6,733 nt of DNA from an uncultured Eubacteriales bacterium (GTDB lineage: Bacteria > Bacillota_A > Clostridia > Christensenellales > Aristaeellaceae), in assembly GCA_902766515.1 (NCBI GenBank), contig CACXEB010000046.1, positions 1 through 6,733 of the forward strand, written 5' to 3'. Each line of letters opens with the position of its first letter. Position 1 is the stretch's first letter. Made by a program: the position numbers and the translations under genes. Shown here one piece after another: positions 1 to 6,733 of the stretch. The notes beneath the pieces were generated by a model, which did no database searches, was not told where the DNA came from, and saw nothing but the letters and a program-made list of their open reading frames with translations.

Positions 1-776
1 GAGCCGACGGTCTTGATATCCACGTCCTGGCCCTTCCAGGTGCCGGCGGGCACGGTGACGTAGTCATAGCCCTGCTCGCACAGGGTGGCCAGCGTTTCGT
101 CGGCCAGCTGCACGTCGTACATGGCGTGGTTCAGGCACAGCTCGGTGGTGTTGGCCTGGCCGGAACCGATGTGGTCGATGGTGAGGTCATAGAGGTCGTC
201 GGACAGGCCGTCCTTGATGGCGCCGCCGGAGGTCTTCTCCACGGTCAGCCAGGCCGGAGGATTGTTGATATCCACGCCGTACACGCCGAACACGCGCTCC
301 GCGGCCAGCTCGCCGAAGGAGCCGTTCTTCTTGATGACCATGCGGACGGGCTGCTGCTTCTCGACCAGCTCTTCGATGGTCTTGATGCCGGTTTCATCCA
401 CGAACCGCTGGGTGAACATCACGTTGACGAAGTCCTTGCCGAGGCCGCCGGCGATGCAGCGGACGTCCGGGCAGACCGGCAGAGAGGCGGATTCAACACC
501 GGTGGTGGCAGCCCACAGCGCGGGCGCGGAGTTGGACACGGTGATGTCGCACTCGCCTTCCTGGATCAGCACAGGAGAGGTCACGTTGCCGGAAGAGTTG
601 GAAACCAGGGACACGGAATAGCCGGGGATGGTCTGGATGCACTGCATGATAGCGGTGGCGTAGGTGTAGCCGGCAGTGCCGGTTTCCTGGGTACCGATCA
701 GGAGCTCGACGTCCGCGAACGCGGAGCCGGCCAGCAGCAAACCGAGAACGAGGGTGAGAGCGATCAGTTTCTTCAT
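1..776 (-). CDS. TAXI-family TRAP transporter solute-binding protein (3' end outside window)
   Basis: Secreted or membrane-surface binding protein that would capture a carboxylated solute for a TRAP-type secondary transporter. The reading frame runs open for 258 codons from ATG at 776-774 to the left edge, so the C-terminus is missing. Residues 1-22 form a classical signal peptide: MKK, then a Leu/Ala-rich core ending in AFA before Asp. There is no lipobox Cys. The mature start, DVELLIGTQETGTAGYTYA, matches the N-terminal 'IGT..TGG.Y' signature of TAXI proteins, and a later AALWAATTG-like stretch (APALWAATTG) also fits. AGGAGG at 785-790 lies 8 nt upstream and fixes the start. It follows the PdxA homologue by 37 nt with no terminator, so it is probably the sixth gene of the operon. 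Known TAXI ligands are mostly dicarboxylates. Binding of a sugar acid is inferred from the neighbours. The matching fused permease should lie just left of the window. Confidence 0.85.
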   Translation of the reverse strand, partial: MKKLIALTLVLGLLLAGSAFADVELLIGTQETGTAGYTYATAIMQCIQTIPGYSVSLVSNSSGNVTSPVLIQEGECDITVSNSAPALWAATTGVESASLPVCPDVRCIAGGLGKDFVNVMFTQRFVDETGIKTIEELVEKQQPVRMVIKKNGSFGELAAERVFGVYGVDINNPPAWLTVEKTSGGAIKDGLSDDLYDLTIDHIGSGQANTTELCLNHAMYDVQLADETLATLCEQGYDYVTVPAGTWKGQDVDIKTVG

Positions 777-813
777 GATTGTTTCCTCCTATTTGTTGTT
801 GCGGCGGGAAGCG

Positions 814-1860
814 TTATGCTTCCTTTATTTTGCGGCTTCTGGACAGGCGAACGCCATAGTCGATGGCATTCAGCAGGCTCAGCTCGTTGGCCTTGCCTGT
901 GCCGGCCTGGTCGAACGCGGTGCCGTGGTCCACGGACACGCGCACGATCGGCAGGCCCAGCGTCAGGTTGATGCCTTCCACGGCATCCCACTTGCCCTCC
1001 TTCTGGTTGTAGACAAAGCCTACGACCTTCAGCGGGATGTGGCCCTGATCGTGGTACATGCATACGACGATGTCGTACCAGCCGCCGCGCAGTTTTGAGA
1101 AGATCGAGTCCGGGGGGAAGGGACCGCTTGCGTCGATGCCTTCCGCGCGGGCCGCTTCGATGGCGGGGGTGATCTCCCTGATCTCCTCGTCACCGAACAG
1201 TCCGCCTTCGCCGCAGTGCGGGTTCAAACCGGCTACGGCGACTCTCGGGTGTTCGATCCCCAGATCTTTGCATGCCTCATGGGACATGCGGATCACATCC
1301 AGAACACGGTCCTTCTTGACGCGATCACAGGCCTCGCGCAGGGACACGTGTGTGGAAACATGGGTGACGCGCATATTCTGATGCGCCAGCATCATGCAGT
1401 ATTTCTTGGCGCCGGTGTAATGCGCATAGATTTCGGTATGGCCGGAGAAATGATGCCCGGCCATGTTCATCGCTTCTTTGTTCAGGGCGTTGGTGACGGT
1501 GCCGTCCACTTCTCCCGCCAGAGCCATCTCGATGACTTTCTTGACATACTGGAAGGCCGCGTTGCCGGCTTCCACGGAGAGCTCGCCGATCTTCAGCGTG
1601 TCGGCGTCGACCAGGTGCATGTCGTACACGTCGATGGTGCCCGGGGTAAACAGGGCTTCCGACACGGCGCTGACCGCGTGGATTTCGATATCCTCCCGGC
1701 CAACCATCCTGCGGGCGCGGCGCATGATCTCGGCGTCGCCGATCACAATGGGCTTGCAGGTATCATAGATGTCCGTATGGCCGCCCAGCGCTTTGATGGT
1801 GATCTCGGGCCCGATGGACGCGGGATCGCCCATGGTAATGCCGATGATGGGTTTGATCAT
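814..1860 (-). CDS. pdxA2: PdxA-family dehydrogenase, probable D-threonate 4-phosphate dehydrogenase (PdxA2-like)
   Basis: NAD-dependent, metal-dependent oxidative decarboxylase of a 4-phosphorylated C4 acid. PdxA2 enzymes turn 4-phospho-D-threonate into DHAP and CO2. The full-length 348 aa fits the family (about 330 aa). Visible motifs are GDPASIGPEI at 11-20, FSGHTE at 138-143, THVS with His171, NPHCGEGG with His215, YHDQGH with His270, and HGTAFDQAGTGKA at 312-324. His171, His215 and His270 correspond to the three metal ligands of E. coli PdxA (His166, His211, His266). Ser15 replaces the Gly of the usual GDPAGIGPE, and Cys216 sits where Ala is common. AGGAGG at 1867-1872 is 6 nt from the ATG, and the upstream aldolase stops 15 nt before this start. 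A biosynthetic pyridoxal role cannot be excluded from sequence alone. The DUF1537 kinase, transporter gene and sugar-type neighbours favour the catabolic branch. The family is certain, the exact substrate is inferred. Confidence 0.88.
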   Translation of the reverse strand: MIKPIIGITMGDPASIGPEITIKALGGHTDIYDTCKPIVIGDAEIMRRARRMVGREDIEIHAVSAVSEALFTPGTIDVYDMHLVDADTLKIGELSVEAGNAAFQYVKKVIEMALAGEVDGTVTNALNKEAMNMAGHHFSGHTEIYAHYTGAKKYCMMLAHQNMRVTHVSTHVSLREACDRVKKDRVLDVIRMSHEACKDLGIEHPRVAVAGLNPHCGEGGLFGDEEIREITPAIEAARAEGIDASGPFPPDSIFSKLRGGWYDIVVCMYHDQGHIPLKVVGFVYNQKEGKWDAVEGINLTLGLPIVRVSVDHGTAFDQAGTGKANELSLLNAIDYGVRLSRSRKIKEA

Positions 1861-1875
1861 GGTGTTCCTCCTTGC

Positions 1876-2784
1876 TCAGCACAGGCCGAGCGCCTTGGTG
1901 TCGTCCAGGATCTTCCGGATGGCGGCGACGCCCTCTTCCGGCACGTAGTTGAAGGGCGAGCGGCAGCGGCCGACCGGATAGCCGAGCATCTCCACGGCGC
2001 GCTTGATGATGGTGTTCGGATTGCCGAACTTGAACGCGGTCTGCAGCACGGAGATGCCGTCCTGCGCGGCCTGCGCTCCTTCGAGGTCGCCGGCGACAAA
2101 CTTGTCATAGATGGAGGCGATGGTCTTGGGCCAGATATTGGCGCGGCCCGCGATACCGCCCCTGCCGCCTTCCTTCAGGCAGGTGAGGATGGCGCCGTCG
2201 TTGCCGGCCAGGATCGCCGCGTCCTTGTCCAGCTCTTTCGTCAGCCGGATGTAGGCCTTGAGGTTCTCAATATCGCCGCTGGAGTCCTTGGCGCCGACGA
2301 TGACGTCCACGTCGCGGATCAGGTCACGGACGGTTTCGGGCAGCAGCTTGTTGCCGGTGCGCGGGGGGATGTTGTACAGGATGATGGGGATGTTCACATG
2401 CTTCGCCACTTCGACATAGTGGTCGTAGAGCTCCTTCTGGGAGGCCGCCGCGAAGCTGGGCGTGATGATGGACAGCACATCGGCGCCCATCTTTTCCGCC
2501 TGTACGCTCTGGCGGATCGTGTCCCGGGTGGAGATGCAGCCGGTGCCCGCGTAGATGGGAACGCGGCCTTTCACCTGGTCGATCATGACTTCCAGGATTT
2601 CGTATTTCTCGTTTTCGCTCAGGATGTAGCCTTCACCGTTGGTTCCGAACGCGAACAGGCCGTGTACGCCGCCCGCCAGCAGGCGTTCGATCTGATTCCT
2701 GAGCTCCGGCAGGTTGAGGCTCTCATCCTCGTTCATGGGGGTCAGAATAGGCGGGATAATACCTTTGATCTCGACGCGCTTCAT
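1876..2784 (-). CDS. DapA/NanA-fold class I aldolase or dehydratase (DHDPS family)
   Basis: TIM-barrel Schiff-base enzyme of the dihydrodipicolinate synthase / N-acetylneuraminate lyase superfamily. It most likely cleaves or dehydrates a 2-keto-3-deoxy sugar acid in the cytosol. The 302 aa are typical of the family. Visible signatures are GTNGEG at 47-52 (carboxylate-binding loop), YNIPPRTG at 137-144 with the catalytic Tyr137, and GAKDSSG at 164-170 with the Schiff-base Lys166. Asn49 replaces the second Thr of the DapA 'GTTGE' loop, which argues against ordinary lysine biosynthesis, although the DapA-like Arg142 is kept. An upstream in-frame ATG at 2808-2806 overlaps the preceding stop as ATGA. 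I prefer the ATG at 2784-2782 because it has AGGAGG 7 nt upstream and removes a non-conserved 8-residue head. It lies 20 nt after the alcohol dehydrogenase gene and 15 nt before the PdxA homologue. Sialic acid lyase, KDG-type aldolase and 4-hydroxy-2-oxoglutarate aldolase all remain possible. The substrate is not determined. Confidence 0.87.
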   Translation of the reverse strand: MKRVEIKGIIPPILTPMNEDESLNLPELRNQIERLLAGGVHGLFAFGTNGEGYILSENEKYEILEVMIDQVKGRVPIYAGTGCISTRDTIRQSVQAEKMGADVLSIITPSFAAASQKELYDHYVEVAKHVNIPIILYNIPPRTGNKLLPETVRDLIRDVDVIVGAKDSSGDIENLKAYIRLTKELDKDAAILAGNDGAILTCLKEGGRGGIAGRANIWPKTIASIYDKFVAGDLEGAQAAQDGISVLQTAFKFGNPNTIIKRAVEMLGYPVGRCRSPFNYVPEEGVAAIRKILDDTKALGLC

Positions 2785-2791
2785 ATTCTTG

Positions 2792-2797
2792 CCTCCT
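2792..2797 (-). promoter_or_regulatory. Shine-Dalgarno that decides the aldolase start
   Basis: The minus strand reads AGGAGG here, 7 nt before the ATG at 2784-2782. The alternative ATG at 2808-2806 lies upstream of this site and has no comparable purine tract at the right distance, so the downstream start is preferred. Confidence 0.8.
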
Positions 2798-2804
2798 ACT
2801 GCGG

Positions 2805-3965
2805 TCACATGACCTGTTGATAGATCGCCCGGGCATCGTCCGGGGTAATCTCGCGCATATTGTTGACCAGCAGGCGGGTCACCTGCATGCCGGCCTGCAC
2901 CAGGCCCTCCAGGTCCTCCTCCGGTACGCCGAATTCCTTGAGGCTGGTGGGGATCTCCAGGTGGCGGACGATCTCGTCCAGCTTGCTGATGATCCAGGCG
3001 CTCTTCTCCTCCGCGGTCCGGCAGGCGCTGCCGTCGTGCGCGCAGCGGTCATAGCACTGGGCAAACCGCTCGCGGCAGACCGGCTCGTTGAACTTCATCA
3101 CCGGTACCAGCAGGATGGCGTTGGAGACGCCGTGGGCGATGTGATACTTGCCGCCCAGCGGGTAGCTCAGCGCGTGCACGCCGGTGGTGCCGCTGGCCGT
3201 GATCGCCAGGCCGCCGTAGAACGCGGCGATCTGCATGGCGTTCTTGGCCGCCATCGCTTCGGGGTCATCGCAGGCGGGAATGATGTTGTTGATGATCAGG
3301 TCCAGGCCGTGCAGGGCGAAGGTGTCGCTGAGCGGATTGGCCTTGTTGCTGGTGTAGCACTCGATGCAGTGGGCCAGCGCGTCCACGCCGGTCGCCGCCG
3401 CGATCTTGCGGGGAAGGTTCTTGATCATGCGGGCGTCCAGGATGACGTAGTCCGCGATCATGTTTTCGTTGACGATGCCGACCTTCAGCTGCTTCTCGGG
3501 CACGGCCACGATGGCGTTCGGCGTGACTTCCGCGCCGGTGCCGGCGGTGGTGGGGATCAGGACGATGGGGACGCACTTTTTGGCGCGGCCGGGGGTATCC
3601 AGCAGCTCTTTGACGCCGTATTCATCCGTCACCAGGATGCTGGCCAGCTTGGCCGCGTCCATGACGCTGCCGCCGCCGCAGGCGACGATCAGGTCGGCGC
3701 CCTGGGCCTTGAAATCATCGATCAGCTTCTGGACCGCCATGTAGTCCGGTTCGGGCTTCAGGTCATCCAGCACATAGTATTCGACGCCGCTGGCCTTCAC
3801 CGCCGCTTCCGGCAGGGCGAAAAGGCCGGTCTTTTCGATCCCGTGATCCGTGAACATCGCGACTTTTTTCGCGCCGGTCGCCTTGATGATGGCGGTGATG
3901 TTGTCCATCGCGTTTTCGCCGCCGTACACGGCGTGGGGCATTTTCAGGTTATAGCTTGCAAGCAT
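2805..3965 (-). CDS. Iron-containing (group III) alcohol dehydrogenase
   Basis: Cytosolic NAD(P)-dependent oxidoreductase that interconverts an alcohol and an aldehyde or ketone using a divalent metal, usually iron. The full-length 386 aa matches FucO/AdhB-type enzymes. Visible are the nucleotide-binding GGGSVMDAAK at 97-106, the PTTAGTGAE loop at 138-146, and the metal set Asp195, His199 (in VDALAHCIE), His264 (GVHALSYPLGG) and His278 (HIAHGVSNA). These fit FucO's Asp196/His200/His263/His277. AAGGAG at 3973-3978 lies 7 nt before the ATG. It starts 15 nt after the propeller gene and ends 20 nt before the aldolase. The operon position suggests it handles a small hydroxy-aldehyde or alcohol made or consumed by the neighbouring enzymes, for example the aldehyde product of the aldolase, but this is inference. 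Substrate specificity within this family cannot be read from motifs. Confidence 0.93.
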   Translation of the reverse strand: MLASYNLKMPHAVYGGENAMDNITAIIKATGAKKVAMFTDHGIEKTGLFALPEAAVKASGVEYYVLDDLKPEPDYMAVQKLIDDFKAQGADLIVACGGGSVMDAAKLASILVTDEYGVKELLDTPGRAKKCVPIVLIPTTAGTGAEVTPNAIVAVPEKQLKVGIVNENMIADYVILDARMIKNLPRKIAAATGVDALAHCIECYTSNKANPLSDTFALHGLDLIINNIIPACDDPEAMAAKNAMQIAAFYGGLAITASGTTGVHALSYPLGGKYHIAHGVSNAILLVPVMKFNEPVCRERFAQCYDRCAHDGSACRTAEEKSAWIISKLDEIVRHLEIPTSLKEFGVPEEDLEGLVQAGMQVTRLLVNNMREITPDDARAIYQQVM

Positions 3966-3980
3966 AGTCTGGCTCCTTCT

Positions 3981-5141
3981 TTATCGGGTCTGCGCGGCGG
4001 TAGGATTGTACAGGCCGACTTTTTCACGCTTCTGGCCGATGACATCGCCCTCGCTGAAGCGCACATACTTGACGCCCTTGCGGGTATAGGCGGCGTAGGC
4101 GAGGTGCAGCATGCCGTCGCGGCTCTGCATCAGGTAGGGATACTCATACTGGCGGTTGTTGGTCTTGTTTTCCTCGCCGACGTAGCCTTCGCCGCGCTCC
4201 ATCCAGCGGATCAGCGGGAAGGTCAGGCCGCCGTCCTCGCTGAGGGCGACCGCCACGGGGCAGCGCAGGCCGGGCCATGCCGCTTTGCCGGGCTGGGGAT
4301 CCGGGGTGCAGGTCGGGTTATAGGCGATCGCGACGCGGCCGGACTGCAGCCGGAGCGCGCTGATGGAGGAATTGTTGTTGGGCAGGGGCGTCGGGACCGG
4401 CACGGACCAGGTGTCGCCGTAGTCGGCGGACTCGCTGCGGTAAATGAAATCCGCCTCGCGGCTGCGCATGAACGCGGCCAGGTGTCCGTTGTCCAGCTCG
4501 ACCACGTTGGCGTGAACGCGGCCGCGGCTGCCGGGCATATCGACCTGCCGCCAGGTGCGGCCTTCGTCGTCGGAAATCTGCAGCGCCGTCGGGTCGCCGG
4601 ACAGGCCGTCGGGGCTGTCGGTGCACAGCCAGTTGGCGAAGATCCAGCGGCCGTTGGACAGCACCTGGATCGGCTGGCGGCAGAAGCTGCCTTCCCGGGC
4701 GAACAGGGTCTCATACGGGCCCCAGGTCCGTCCGCCGTCCGTGCTCTTCTGCACCCGGATCTGGCTGGTGAACTGCATATTGTCCTTCCCGGCCTGGCGG
4801 TCCTTCTGGGCCGTATAGATCGCCCATACCGCGCCGTCGTTGCCGGCGAACAGGGAGGGATTCTGCTCGCTGCGCTCGGGATCGCCGGAAATATCCACCG
4901 GATCCGACCAGCGCAGGCCGTCTTTTTCAAGCCGTGAGCAGATGATGCGGATGTCGGCGCTGCCTTCGTAGGTGCCGGCAAACCAGCAGCACAGCAGAGC
5001 GCCGTCGGGCAGCTCCAGCATGGCGGGGGCATGCGCGGTCGGATATCCGCCGCTGGGCAGGTATGCCTCTACGGTGCCCATGTCCGCGTTCCGGTACAGG
5101 GTGCCGTCGGGCGTCAGGCCGGGGAGCAGGGGATAAACCAT
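3981..5141 (-). CDS. Sialidase-like BNR-repeat beta-propeller protein, cytosolic (COG4692/BNR_2-like)
   Basis: Predicted six-bladed-type beta-propeller of 386 aa with no signal peptide, so it probably acts in the cytosol. Asp-box (SxDxGxxW) repeats are visible at 133-140 STDGGRTW, 190-197 SDDEGRTW, 238-245 SADYGDTW and a weaker 301-308 SEDGGLTF. Other blocks fit the 'predicted neuraminidase' group: HAPAMLELPDG at 37-47, WFAGTYEGSAD at 53-63, FMRSR at 224-228 and LPNNNSSISALRL at 253-265. The F/YRIP motif of true GH33 sialidases is absent, with the HAP segment in the equivalent N-terminal region. It could be a glycosidase, a lyase or another propeller enzyme, so I do not call it a sialidase by function. 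AGGAGG at 5150-5155 is 8 nt from the ATG. The kinase stops 14 nt upstream and the alcohol dehydrogenase starts 15 nt downstream, so it is firmly inside the operon. Its job is probably to release an intracellular sugar acid from a conjugate, which is inference. Confidence 0.82.
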   Translation of the reverse strand: MVYPLLPGLTPDGTLYRNADMGTVEAYLPSGGYPTAHAPAMLELPDGALLCCWFAGTYEGSADIRIICSRLEKDGLRWSDPVDISGDPERSEQNPSLFAGNDGAVWAIYTAQKDRQAGKDNMQFTSQIRVQKSTDGGRTWGPYETLFAREGSFCRQPIQVLSNGRWIFANWLCTDSPDGLSGDPTALQISDDEGRTWRQVDMPGSRGRVHANVVELDNGHLAAFMRSREADFIYRSESADYGDTWSVPVPTPLPNNNSSISALRLQSGRVAIAYNPTCTPDPQPGKAAWPGLRCPVAVALSEDGGLTFPLIRWMERGEGYVGEENKTNNRQYEYPYLMQSRDGMLHLAYAAYTRKGVKYVRFSEGDVIGQKREKVGLYNPTAAQTR

Positions 5142-5155
5142 GGATGTGACCTCCT

Positions 5156-6421
5156 TTATTGAGCGGGTTGGGACTGTGCTTCGATGCGGGACTTGATATC
5201 CACAAGCAGGCTTTCCTGGCCGAAGCCGCCGGATTTGGTCATCGCGAAACGGGTCTGACCGCCGGACTCAAACTGGGCCAGCACCACGCCGGGGAAGATC
5301 TCCAGCAGCGGTTCCATCTGGAAAACGTGCATCCGGTTCATGCATTGCAGCAGCGTATCGCCGCCCGTGATCAGCAGGGTGCGCTTCGGGCCCTGCAGCA
5401 TCGCCGGCAGGATGTCGCCCAGGGCGGAGGAAATGGCGCTGCGGAGCGTTTCGGTGTCCATGCGCCGTTCCGCGGCGTAGGCGGCGGTGGCGGTGTTGGC
5501 ATCGTCCTCGTCGTTGGCGTCCAGGATCAGCCACGGCTGCGCTTCGGACTGCCGCTGCCAGCCGGCGAGCACAGCCCGGCCTTCGGGACTGCTGAAATAG
5601 CCGGGACGGAGCTTTTGCTCCGGGGTGATGTGCAGCCGGGTGAATCCATGCTCCCCGGCGAAGCGGAGCTGCCGCTGGGTGATCGGGTTCACGCTGCCGC
5701 AGAGCACCAGCAGCCCGTCGTCCAGGGGCGGACAGACCGGCGGGCGGTCCGCTTCAAGGTTCAGCAGATCCGGCAGCACGGAAGCAAAGCCCGCGCAGCC
5801 TGCCGTGATCCGGAGCGCGCCGCAGCGGGCCAGGCTGCGGCCGGCTGCTGCCAGGTCGGCGTCGGTCCGGGCGTCGACGACCCAGATGCCGTCCCGCGCC
5901 GCGGGCAGCGTGTCCGCCGTGGCGCTGTAGGCGGGCGTCCTGGTCTGCAGGCCGATCAGGCGGAGGACGTTCGATTCCCGCACGGGCTCGAAGGGGTCGC
6001 GCCCAAACACCGATTCGGCCACCGGGACACTGTCGATATAATGGACGCCGTTGACCGTCAGCCGCGCCAGCGCAGGCATCGCCGGCATGAAGTACATCCG
6101 CTTTTCGCCGGCCGCGTCCATCACGGCGCTCAGCTCCGCGCCGATATTGCCGCGCAGGCCGGAATCTGTCTTCTTATAAATGGAAGGAATCCCCGCTTCA
6201 ACGCCTTTCTGCACCGCCTGAAAAACGGCGGCATAGGCCTGGTCGGGCGGCATGTGCCGCGTCTCCGCGACGACGACCAGCACCTGCGCGCTGTCCGCGG
6301 CCGTCCGGAAATCGACCTGCGGGTCGGTGACCACACGGGTCCGGATGCCACGGGAGGCAAACTGGACGCCGGTGTCCAGCCCGCCCGTGAAATCGTCAGC
6401 AATGATCAGCAGCTTGATCAT
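5156..6421 (-). CDS. Four-carbon acid sugar kinase family protein (DUF1537), probable D-threonate/D-erythronate-type kinase
   Basis: ATP-dependent kinase that would phosphorylate a four-carbon acid sugar (tetronate) at C4, giving the substrate of the PdxA homologue. The 421 aa are the usual length. N-terminal substrate-domain motifs are IADDFTGGLD at 7-16, YKKTDSGLRGNIGAEL at 82-97 and PAMPALAR at 113-120. C-terminal nucleotide-domain motifs are CGSVNPITQRQL at 241-252, ITGGDTL at 351-357 and TRFAMTKSGGFG at 390-401. The second Gly of FTGGLD replaces the more usual Ala. It is the first gene after the promoter at 6467-6495, with AAGGAG at 6429-6434, 7 nt from the ATG. In studied systems DUF1537 members include D-threonate, D-erythronate and 3-oxo-tetronate kinases. 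The PdxA partner here favours D-threonate, but the exact substrate is inferred. The family call is strong. Confidence 0.92.
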   Translation of the reverse strand: MIKLLIIADDFTGGLDTGVQFASRGIRTRVVTDPQVDFRTAADSAQVLVVVAETRHMPPDQAYAAVFQAVQKGVEAGIPSIYKKTDSGLRGNIGAELSAVMDAAGEKRMYFMPAMPALARLTVNGVHYIDSVPVAESVFGRDPFEPVRESNVLRLIGLQTRTPAYSATADTLPAARDGIWVVDARTDADLAAAGRSLARCGALRITAGCAGFASVLPDLLNLEADRPPVCPPLDDGLLVLCGSVNPITQRQLRFAGEHGFTRLHITPEQKLRPGYFSSPEGRAVLAGWQRQSEAQPWLILDANDEDDANTATAAYAAERRMDTETLRSAISSALGDILPAMLQGPKRTLLITGGDTLLQCMNRMHVFQMEPLLEIFPGVVLAQFESGGQTRFAMTKSGGFGQESLLVDIKSRIEAQSQPAQ

Positions 6422-6466
6422 GTTTCCACTCCTTAATAGAAGAACGGTATCCTGAGTTCCGTGTTT

Positions 6467-6495
6467 ATTATATGCGGTCTGGCGGCCTCGCGCAA
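6467..6495 (-). promoter_or_regulatory. Sigma-70-like promoter of the catabolic operon
   Basis: The minus strand has a perfect -10 TATAAT at 6472-6467. Exactly 17 bp upstream is TTGCGC at 6495-6490, which matches the -35 consensus at its three most conserved bases. The predicted start is near 6460, giving a leader of about 39 nt before the kinase ATG at 6421. An 8-bp palindrome, TCAATTGA (6498-6505), abuts the -35. No mapped transcript exists, so this is a motif-based call. Confidence 0.7.
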
Positions 6496-6520
6496 TTTCA
6501 ATTGACCTGATGAGTGTTTA

Positions 6521-6566
6521 AATTTGGAACATATTTCCTAAATCGTGTTCAAAAATGTTCCAAATT
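6521..6566. repeat. Perfect 12-bp inverted repeat, probable operator / activator site
   Basis: AATTTGGAACAT at 6521-6532 is repeated as its exact reverse complement ATGTTCCAAATT at 6555-6566, with 22 bp between and arm centres 34 bp apart (about three helical turns). Additional TGTTC half-sites lie inside. The element sits between the two divergent promoters, 25 bp upstream of the operon -35 and 20 bp upstream of the regulator -35. The best reading is a binding site for the divergently encoded regulator, able to act on both promoters. There is no T-tract, so it is not a terminator. Confidence 0.65.
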
Positions 6567-6586
6567 AAGACATGCGCTTCCGGGGC

Positions 6587-6615
6587 TTTTCAAAACTGTT
6601 TATATATGATACAAT
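6587..6615 (+). promoter_or_regulatory. Sigma-70-like promoter of the divergent regulator
   Basis: TTTTCA at 6587-6592 (4/6 to the -35 consensus) lies 17 bp from TACAAT at 6610-6615 (5/6 to the -10). The predicted start is near 6622, giving a leader of about 50 nt before the ATG at 6672. An overlapping TATGAT at 6605-6610 is an alternative -10. This is a motif-based call. Confidence 0.55.
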
Positions 6616-6671
6616 ATGCCCGGACGGAACCCTGTGATAATACCGTGGTACGACCAACGGAGGTGGCAACC

Positions 6672-6733
6672 ATGCTGCTCGCTGATACTTCTCCCATCCG
6701 CGTACTGGCCATCGCGCCGTACGAAGCCATGGC
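6672..6733 (+). CDS. Start of a divergent regulator, probably PrpR N-terminal sensor type (truncated by window edge)
   Basis: Only the first 20 codons are in the window, reading MLLADTSPIRVLAIAPYEAM. The ATG at 6672-6674 is preceded by GGAGGT at 6659-6664, 7 nt away, and by a plausible promoter, which supports a real gene rather than a chance frame. The segment 'IRVLAIAPYEAM' resembles the opening beta-strand of PrpR_N sensor domains, which in Clostridia often front sigma-54 activators or other HTH proteins and often sit beside DUF1537/PdxA operons. Divergent placement with a shared inverted repeat fits a local activator that senses the substrate or an intermediate. With so few residues, the family is a recognition-based guess. 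The effector and DNA-binding domains lie outside the window. Confidence 0.55.
   Translation, partial: MLLADTSPIRVLAIAPYEAM

Follow-up and report, generated by a model that had tools for sequence, protein, structure and literature searches.

A conserved gene set with a sialidase-fold propeller and a D-threonate-type kinase/PdxA pair as a candidate route for the catabolism of a 3-deoxy-hept-2-ulosaric acid, with Dha of rhamnogalacturonan II as the likeliest substrate

The DUF1537 kinase DtnK and PdxA2 make up the D-threonate pathway, for which these two enzymes are enough. What, then, do three further enzymes do in a putative operon that encodes a similar pair? These genes lie on a stretch of 6,733 nucleotides (contig CACXEB010000046.1, positions 1–6733) from an uncultured Eubacteriales bacterium (assembly GCA_902766515.1), and the whole stretch is called the window below. 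Open reading frame (ORF) calling and Pfam searches identified six minus-strand genes at positions 1–6421, with the kinase gene first and the PdxA homologue fifth, and confirmed the tightly spaced arrangement given in the original prediction from the sequence. The five enzyme genes encode a DUF1537 (four-carbon acid sugar) kinase (5156–6421, 421 aa; SBD_N PF07005 and NBD_C PF17042), a BNR_2 sialidase-fold propeller (3981–5141, 386 aa), an iron-containing alcohol dehydrogenase (Fe-ADH; 2805–3965, 386 aa; PF00465 and PF25137 above the cut-off), a Schiff-base aldolase of the dihydrodipicolinate synthase (DHDPS) fold (1876–2784, 302 aa; PF00701), and a PdxA-family dehydrogenase (814–1860, 348 aa; PF04166). 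The sixth gene encodes a TAXI-type solute-binding protein of a tripartite ATP-independent periplasmic (TRAP) transporter. Spacing was 14–37 bp (14, 15, 20, 15, and 37 bp along the operon); the 20-bp gap assumes an ATG at 2784 as the aldolase start, which was used here, and a longer GTG start (ORF 1876–2808) would give a 4-bp overlap with the neighboring gene. We consider it rather probable that the five enzymes form a single linear pathway through which gut and soil bacteria would use a 3-deoxy-hept-2-ulosaric acid, the likeliest substrate being Dha (3-deoxy-D-lyxo-hept-2-ulosaric acid). Dha is an uncommon acid sugar of seven carbons that occurs in rhamnogalacturonan II (RG-II), a part of the pectin of plant walls. 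This reading is based on gene content, linkage, protein families, the predicted fold of the propeller, conserved residues, and the RG-II-type context of distant homologues, from which the identity of the substrate, each reaction, and the reaction order were inferred.

The conservation of the gene set was examined with the propeller as bait. Sixteen propeller sequences led to 112 relatives in public genomes, and the best 80 of the 112 were taken as loci, in which all ORFs were compared with the six window proteins; an identity of at least 35% (25% for the TAXI protein) was required for a partner call. The kinase, Fe-ADH, aldolase, and PdxA genes were all found beside the propeller gene on the same stretch in 66 of the 80 loci. 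The three middle genes are thus present in orthologous loci, and the original prediction had named their absence there as an outcome that would speak against it. The TAXI gene was present in 27 loci. The gene order varied: 28 loci had kinase–propeller–ADH–aldolase–PdxA, 11 had the same order plus the TAXI gene, 12 had kinase–ADH–aldolase–PdxA–propeller, 8 had the TAXI gene before the propeller gene, and further arrangements also occurred. These loci belonged to Clostridia, Faecalibacterium prausnitzii, Paenibacillus, Streptococcus, Enterococcus, and Succinivibrionaceae. The linkage of the five genes is far beyond chance, and the gene set is real and conserved; it very probably works as a unit.

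Many of the 14 incomplete loci were short or ended near the propeller gene, and in one (L069) the propeller gene stood alone despite 10 kb on either side. Eleven of the 14 corresponding genomes were checked for an aldolase elsewhere; seven had one with 43–75% identity (one of them a fragment), G011 had a relative at 36% plus a 55% fragment, and the best relatives in G008, G005, and G001 reached just 30–34%. In three genomes (G002, G003, and G004; Succinatimonas, Succinivibrionaceae, and Aeromonadales), the PdxA, aldolase, and ADH genes were clustered, and the propeller and TAXI genes lay together on another contig. The clusters of G002 and G004 included a kinase gene (26–28% identity), and the kinase-like match of G003 was located on a different contig. 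In a class-wide survey of 291 genomes, the propeller was found at E ≤ 1e-60 in 2 genomes (including the center itself), the aldolase at E ≤ 1e-65 in 12, and the kinase at E ≤ 1e-55 in 6. Based on these low counts, the cluster is patchy, and the rarity of the propeller at the class level makes horizontal transfer likely. In addition, propeller-less kinase–PdxA–aldolase–ADH clusters containing genes for a PTE-family protein and a D-2-hydroxyacid dehydrogenase were observed in L128 (by Pfam) and L133 (by eye). These extra genes suggest other possible entry points into a shared core.

The window aldolase was aligned with 66 relatives (67 sequences in total; matches with less than 40% identity or fewer than 270 aligned residues were excluded), and positions are given in the numbers of E. 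coli DapA. The Schiff-base Lys, Tyr133, Thr44, Gly46-Glu47, and Arg138 were invariant in all 67 sequences, and DapA Thr45 and Tyr107 were replaced by Asn and Phe, respectively, in all of them. In the numbering of the window protein, the Schiff-base Lys (DapA Lys161) is K166, and the conserved Tyr and Arg are Y137 and R142. In DapA, the four-carbon aldehyde acid aspartate semialdehyde is bound through its carboxylate by Arg138. Leu stands at this position in E. coli NanA, YagE, and YjhH, and their aldehyde products carry no carboxylate; where E. coli NanA has Leu, the window aldolase has Arg. The window protein scored 199.4 bits against the NCBIfam dapA model (cut-off, 206.15), which a distant member of the group (L148) exceeded with 225.9 bits, and stayed below the cut-offs of two N-acetylneuraminate lyase models (139.6 vs 281 and 125.3 vs 382 bits). 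Since Arg138 is kept and Thr45 and Tyr107 are changed, the window protein is probably not DapA and should have a four-carbon aldehyde acid as a product or a substrate. L137 and L138 show the same T-N-G-E/F/Y/R/K pattern, as do L128, L131, L132, and L133, whose genomes gave no propeller match at E ≤ 1e-60.

With pyruvate and a four-carbon aldehyde acid as the aldolase products, the substrate would have seven carbons and two carboxylates. Fischer bookkeeping from sugar names places the hydroxyl groups of the D-lyxo configuration left-left-right at C4–C6, and cleavage and reduction then yield D-threonate. The substrate is probably a 3-deoxy-hept-2-ulosaric acid, cut to pyruvate and, after reduction, D-threonate. 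In the proposed pathway, a TAXI-TRAP transporter would import Dha or a small Dha glycoside (relatives would use CitMHS, other TRAP, SSF, or ABC transporters), and the sialidase-fold propeller would hydrolyze the Dha ketoside to free Dha. The aldolase would then form a Schiff base and cleave the C3–C4 bond to give pyruvate and D-threuronate, whose carboxylate may be bound by the counterpart of DapA R138. The Fe-ADH, as a threuronate reductase, would reduce the aldehyde of D-threuronate to D-threonate, which the DUF1537 kinase, as a D-threonate 4-kinase, would convert to 4-phospho-D-threonate. Finally, the PdxA-family protein would act as a 4-phospho-D-threonate 3-dehydrogenase, with oxidation and decarboxylation to dihydroxyacetone phosphate (DHAP) and CO2, and would regain the NADH spent by the reductase. 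The predicted net reaction, Dha to pyruvate, DHAP, and CO2, is redox neutral and would suit anaerobes. A larger substrate that yields a tetronate and another fragment, as put forward in the original prediction, fits the D-threonate (after reduction) and pyruvate proposed here; what changes is that the middle genes, together with those for the kinase and PdxA, may make up a single linear pathway instead of a branch for a separate fragment.

Structure prediction and fold comparison assigned the GH33 sialidase fold to the propeller, a point that was not part of the original prediction. Profile alignments, some of them weak, placed D63, R226, and R293 at positions that we take to be catalytic in sialidases. 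His210 at the Glu position and Arg226 as the second Arg were assigned by profile alignment, His37 at the first Arg and Asp63 as the Asp by weak matches (E 0.11–0.14), Arg293 as the third Arg by the coordinates of a weak match, and Tyr334 by motif position only. The position of the catalytic Glu is occupied by His or Gln among the propellers. Among 16 carriers, the propeller was the sole BNR_2 protein above the Pfam cut-off in 13. No obvious signal peptide was seen by eye in the window propeller, which is probably cytosolic. The propeller step is the least certain part of the pathway, and its exact reaction is the weakest point. Separately, a lone propeller paralogue (56% identity) was observed at L130:9018-10139 beside fatty-acid-synthesis-like genes and a Ca-type P-ATPase gene; its active-site residues are changed (K37, Q210, and T334), and it is perhaps no longer an enzyme.

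The context of distant homologues was examined in 295 evenly sampled genomes of Paenibacillaceae. An aldolase query from L132 (E ≤ 1e-75) gave 19 matches in 17 carriers, and all 19 loci were examined. By BLAST, with some matches partial, a propeller homologue was found in 14 of these loci, PdxA in 13, the kinase in 12, and ADH in 12; seven contained all five genes. Two loci, L146 (G420) and L148 (G436), were located inside pectin clusters. Pfam identified GH78, GH28, pectate lyase, pectinesterase, GH2, GH95, and apiosidase (PF13204) in L146 and apiosidase, GH29, and GH28 in L148, and the G436 contig further along encodes GH42, GH95, and GH78. This contig also encodes a 912-aa protein that matched the alpha-D-galacturonidase model NF049878 with 1028.9 bits, below the cut-off of 1300, and was taken as putatively GH138-like. 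GH138 is specific for RG-II, and GH138, apiosidase, and others are markers of RG-II degradation. NF049878 matched proteins of 9 of the 295 genomes, none above the cut-off, and, among 14 control genomes, only one of Bacteroides ihuae. The presence of homologous genes in such RG-II-type clusters is a further point beyond the original prediction.

An aldolase query from L148 found 24 carriers among the 295 genomes. The aldolase and a GH138-like gene occurred together in five genomes, against an expectation of 0.73 (P = 2.4e-4); three genomes remained (P = 0.011) once the query genome and a near twin of it were removed, and an overlap of three (P = 0.011) was also obtained with the 17 carriers of the L132 query, all of these values being uncorrected for phylogeny. 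In four of the five genomes (G436, G420, G534, and G557), the aldolase gene of the TNGE type was located 3–17 kb from the GH138-like gene, together with a propeller gene and surrounded by apiosidase, GH95, and pectin-enzyme genes; in the fifth (G501), the two genes were on different contigs. G557 contained a contiguous KIN-PDXA-DAPA-ADH cluster, with the GH138-like gene 3.4 kb from the aldolase gene and three apiosidase-type genes on neighboring stretches. BLAST also placed a propeller gene next to a homologue of the PF22422 glycosidase in both G534 and G557. The clusters of G436 and G534 contain two propeller types, BNRpa and BNRpb, and the window propeller is nearer to BNRpa (38% vs 29% identity in L148). 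BNRpb (L148:14871-15917 and L175:17602-18603) has Thr at the position of R228 and Gln at that of H210. The two types could serve Dha and Kdo (3-deoxy-D-manno-oct-2-ulosonic acid), with BNRpb as a possible Kdo-specific counterpart.

Accessory genes in the 80 propeller loci encode a PrpR_N regulator (58 loci), a CitMHS transporter (28), a fused TAXI permease (19), a VOC-like protein (17), a YhcH/DUF386 protein (15), and three groups of esterase-like proteins (11, 10, and 4). According to PMC8141875, YhcH is an anomerase and converts cyclic Neu5Ac to the open form for NanA. In a wider BLAST comparison, in which a locus with both types of transporter was assigned to the CitMHS group and 10 loci with no transporter seen were excluded, metal exporters of three unrelated families were found in 15 of the 39 loci with CitMHS and in none of the 31 with TRAP (Fisher P = 5e-5); this test is biased because the three exporter queries were picked from CitMHS loci after looking, and it is uncorrected for phylogeny. 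The exporters were Na/Ca exchangers in 11 loci, Ca-type P-ATPases in 3, and TerC in 1, and TerC may export metals other than calcium. CitMHS proteins import citrate as metal complexes. From the combination of CitMHS and metal exporters, the substrate may be imported as a calcium chelate in CitMHS carriers, which fits a polyhydroxy dicarboxylate.

A number of observations weigh against the proposed Dha pathway, in addition to the limits stated above for the co-occurrence and exporter tests. The best NCBIfam model of the kinase was that of D-threonate kinase, with 195.7 bits against a cut-off of 450. For PdxA, the D-threonate 4-phosphate dehydrogenase model was second best and also below its cut-off (351.3 vs 583 bits), and the generic pdxA cut-off was exceeded (343.9 vs 290.35 bits). 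Genuine DapA also has Arg138, and of 27 distant aldolases, 20 have Arg at this position, 4 have Lys, 2 have Asn, and 1 has Leu. The catalytic set of GH33 (Arg triad, Asp acid/base, and Tyr-Glu pair) is incomplete in the propeller: His37 occupies the position of the first triad Arg and His210 that of the Glu partner of the nucleophilic Tyr, which is unlike both GH33 and the description of GH143. In the pectin clusters, ADH-KIN-PDXA lies about 39 kb from the aldolase gene on the same contig in G436, and the kinase and PdxA genes are on another contig than the aldolase gene in G420. The homologues are distant from the window proteins: the aldolases of L146 and L148 show 42–43% identity and the propellers 38–39% (another, 29%), and those of L161 show 35% (ADH), 30% (kinase), and 43% (PdxA). 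GH138-like genes were absent from 19 of the 24 aldolase-bearing Paenibacillaceae genomes, and 4 of the 9 genomes with GH138-like genes lacked this aldolase, having only relatives of 32–34% identity; many carriers may thus live on scavenged free Dha or on a related acid. Finally, RG-II also contains Kdo, so that the cluster context cannot separate Dha from Kdo.

Catabolism of Kdo, the other ulosonic acid of RG-II according to the excerpt of PMC12282258, is accordingly one of the alternatives to be weighed. The propeller would be a Kdo hydrolase, the aldolase would convert Kdo to pyruvate and D-arabinose, and the ADH, kinase, and PdxA would act on later or parallel intermediates. A sialidase fold and YhcH would suit Kdo equally, but D-arabinose requires no tetronate kinase or PdxA and offers no carboxylate for the conserved Arg, and, with two different propellers in the G436 and G534 clusters, each ulosonic acid would have its own; we consider this explanation improbable. 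Another hydroxylated ulosaric acid (for example, an epimer of Dha at C4, a further heptulosarate, or a lactone of such an acid) could be the substrate of the same chemistry. Since the C4 stereocenter is lost on cleavage, C4 epimers are indistinguishable by enzyme content; furthermore, most aldolase carriers have no GH138-like gene, and the PTE-family and 2-hydroxyacid dehydrogenase genes of the propeller-less clusters hint at other entry points. Nevertheless, the genes are carried by RG-II-type clusters, and Dha is, to our knowledge, the only 3-deoxy-heptulosarate of land plants, which makes a different ulosarate rather improbable.

The five activities would also all be used in a two-branch operon, the alternative nearest to the original prediction, in which the propeller splits an imported conjugate of a tetronate and a sugar acid, the kinase and PdxA take the tetronate, and the aldolase and ADH take the rest (for example, 2-keto-3-deoxygluconate to pyruvate and glyceraldehyde, and then glycerol). 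A propeller hydrolase suits the cleavage of a conjugate, and some loci contain esterase-like genes. On the other hand, the invariant Arg of the aldolase points to a carboxylated aldehyde, the four-gene core recurs in genomes without the propeller at E ≤ 1e-60 (L128, L131, and L133), and we know of no natural tetronate–sugar acid conjugate; this arrangement therefore appears unlikely. An ordinary D-threonate operon, with the propeller, ADH, and DHDPS-fold genes as unrelated passengers, would agree with the best NCBIfam match of the kinase. However, the five genes stay together in most propeller loci despite rearrangement, and distant members re-cluster in Bacilli and Succinivibrionaceae; this explanation is strongly disfavored and very improbable. 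Dipicolinate breakdown, considered for the calcium and DapA hints, was dropped, as it leaves the kinase and PdxA unexplained.

The proposed Dha pathway resembles several known systems in part. Its last two steps are identical to those of the D-threonate pathway and involve the same kinase and PdxA families; the window differs in that three added enzymes would supply D-threonate by breaking down a larger acid and in that both proteins score below the curated cut-offs. The D-glucarate/galactarate pathway (GudD/GarD, GarL, GarR, and GarK), in which a 2-keto-3-deoxy aldarate aldolase yields pyruvate and an aldehyde acid, follows the same logic of aldolase, reductase, and kinase. There the substrate has six carbons and the intermediate is tartronate semialdehyde, whereas a seven-carbon substrate and threuronate are proposed here, and the enzyme families differ. 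Sialic acid catabolism (sialidase, NanA, and NanQ/YhcH) likewise combines a sialidase-fold enzyme and a DHDPS-fold lyase in one locus, and a YhcH-family gene is shared by the 15 relatives of the window locus counted above; unlike that system, the window has no NanK or NanE, its aldolase has the Arg of DapA and not the Leu of NanA, and its propeller lacks two GH33 catalytic residues. The Dha-releasing protein of Bacteroides thetaiotaomicron, which we take to be BT1020, with GH142, joins two activities in one protein, comparable with the adjoining glycosidase and propeller genes of G534 and G557. In contrast to BT1020, the window propeller has its Glu replaced; a sequence link to GH143 (PDB 5mqr, E 0.62) was not significant and was not used as support. 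The excerpts of the literature that describe the B. thetaiotaomicron GH143 protein report sites for beta-L-arabinofuranosidase and Dha hydrolase and the release of Dha from RG-II, and present the Dha hydrolase as a five-bladed propeller that keeps Tyr-Glu.

Among the open-licence PubMed Central matches listed, none described a Dha aldolase or Dha catabolism, although a description outside that literature is possible, and no open-licence paper there contained both "heptulosaric" and "threonate". The titles and abstract beginnings of its open-licence DUF1537 literature did not point to this gene set, in agreement with the earlier statement that no pathway with this exact set was known. The excerpt of PMC12911395 names single genes only, and PMC11784079 contained none of the RG-II terms sought. 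The novelty lies in a new combination of known enzyme families and a newly proposed substrate. The balance tips only slightly toward this being the first Dha catabolic pathway, with a dedicated aldolase, a threuronate reductase, and a diverged sialidase-fold hydrolase feeding a D-threonate kinase/PdxA2 pair, in gut anaerobes including Faecalibacterium prausnitzii strains and, distantly, in Paenibacillaceae with RG-II-type clusters, some carriers importing the calcium chelate. The pectin of plant foods contains RG-II as a conserved domain, for which Dha is among the signature sugars. If correct, the pathway would explain a possible fate of released Dha, name enzymes with substrates that can be made and tested, suggest cross-feeding on RG-II by gut bacteria such as Faecalibacterium, and provide a natural source of D-threonate for DUF1537 kinase–PdxA pairs.

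The remaining features of the window concern transport and regulation. The TAXI-type protein is represented by its start (3–776, minus strand; 258 aa, open at the window edge; NMT1_3 PF16868), and its best NCBIfam model was TIGR02122 (TAXI TRAP solute-binding subunit), with 50.6 bits, below the cut-off of 84.35. On the plus strand, positions 6672–6733 contain the first codons of a divergent regulator, probably of the PrpR_N/Fis type, with the translation MLLADTSPIRVLAIAPYEAM, whose likeness to PrpR_N starts was judged by eye; a regulator of this group is divergent to the kinase gene in 52 related loci. A 22-nt inverted repeat (arms 86% complementary, 14-nt spacer) at 6515–6572, upstream of the kinase gene, is a possible operator, and its core letters were found in 0 of the 52 related intergenic regions. 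All 16 NCBIfam models that matched the Fe-ADH did so below their own cut-offs. The closest PDB entries to the PdxA homologue were 6e85 (D-threonate 4-phosphate dehydrogenase), 2hi1, and 4jqp. PdxA matches were present in 516 plasmid records, from which no extra context was gained; the closest plasmid-borne relatives were NZ_CP072889.1 (64.5%) and OY725838.1 (61.3%), from Enterococcus raffinosus and Subdoligranulum variabile. A different DHDPS-fold protein (29–30% identity, N-T-G-E, and His at position 107) is encoded on the same stretches as GH138-like genes (L169:943-1866, L171:1199-2125, and L182:9281-10177) and is possibly an aldolase for a different sugar acid. In addition, L163:658-2754 encodes a 698-aa protein with no Pfam or NCBIfam match, which has homologues of 51–53% identity (L175 and L178) in the G534 and G557 clusters and may be an undescribed glycosidase.

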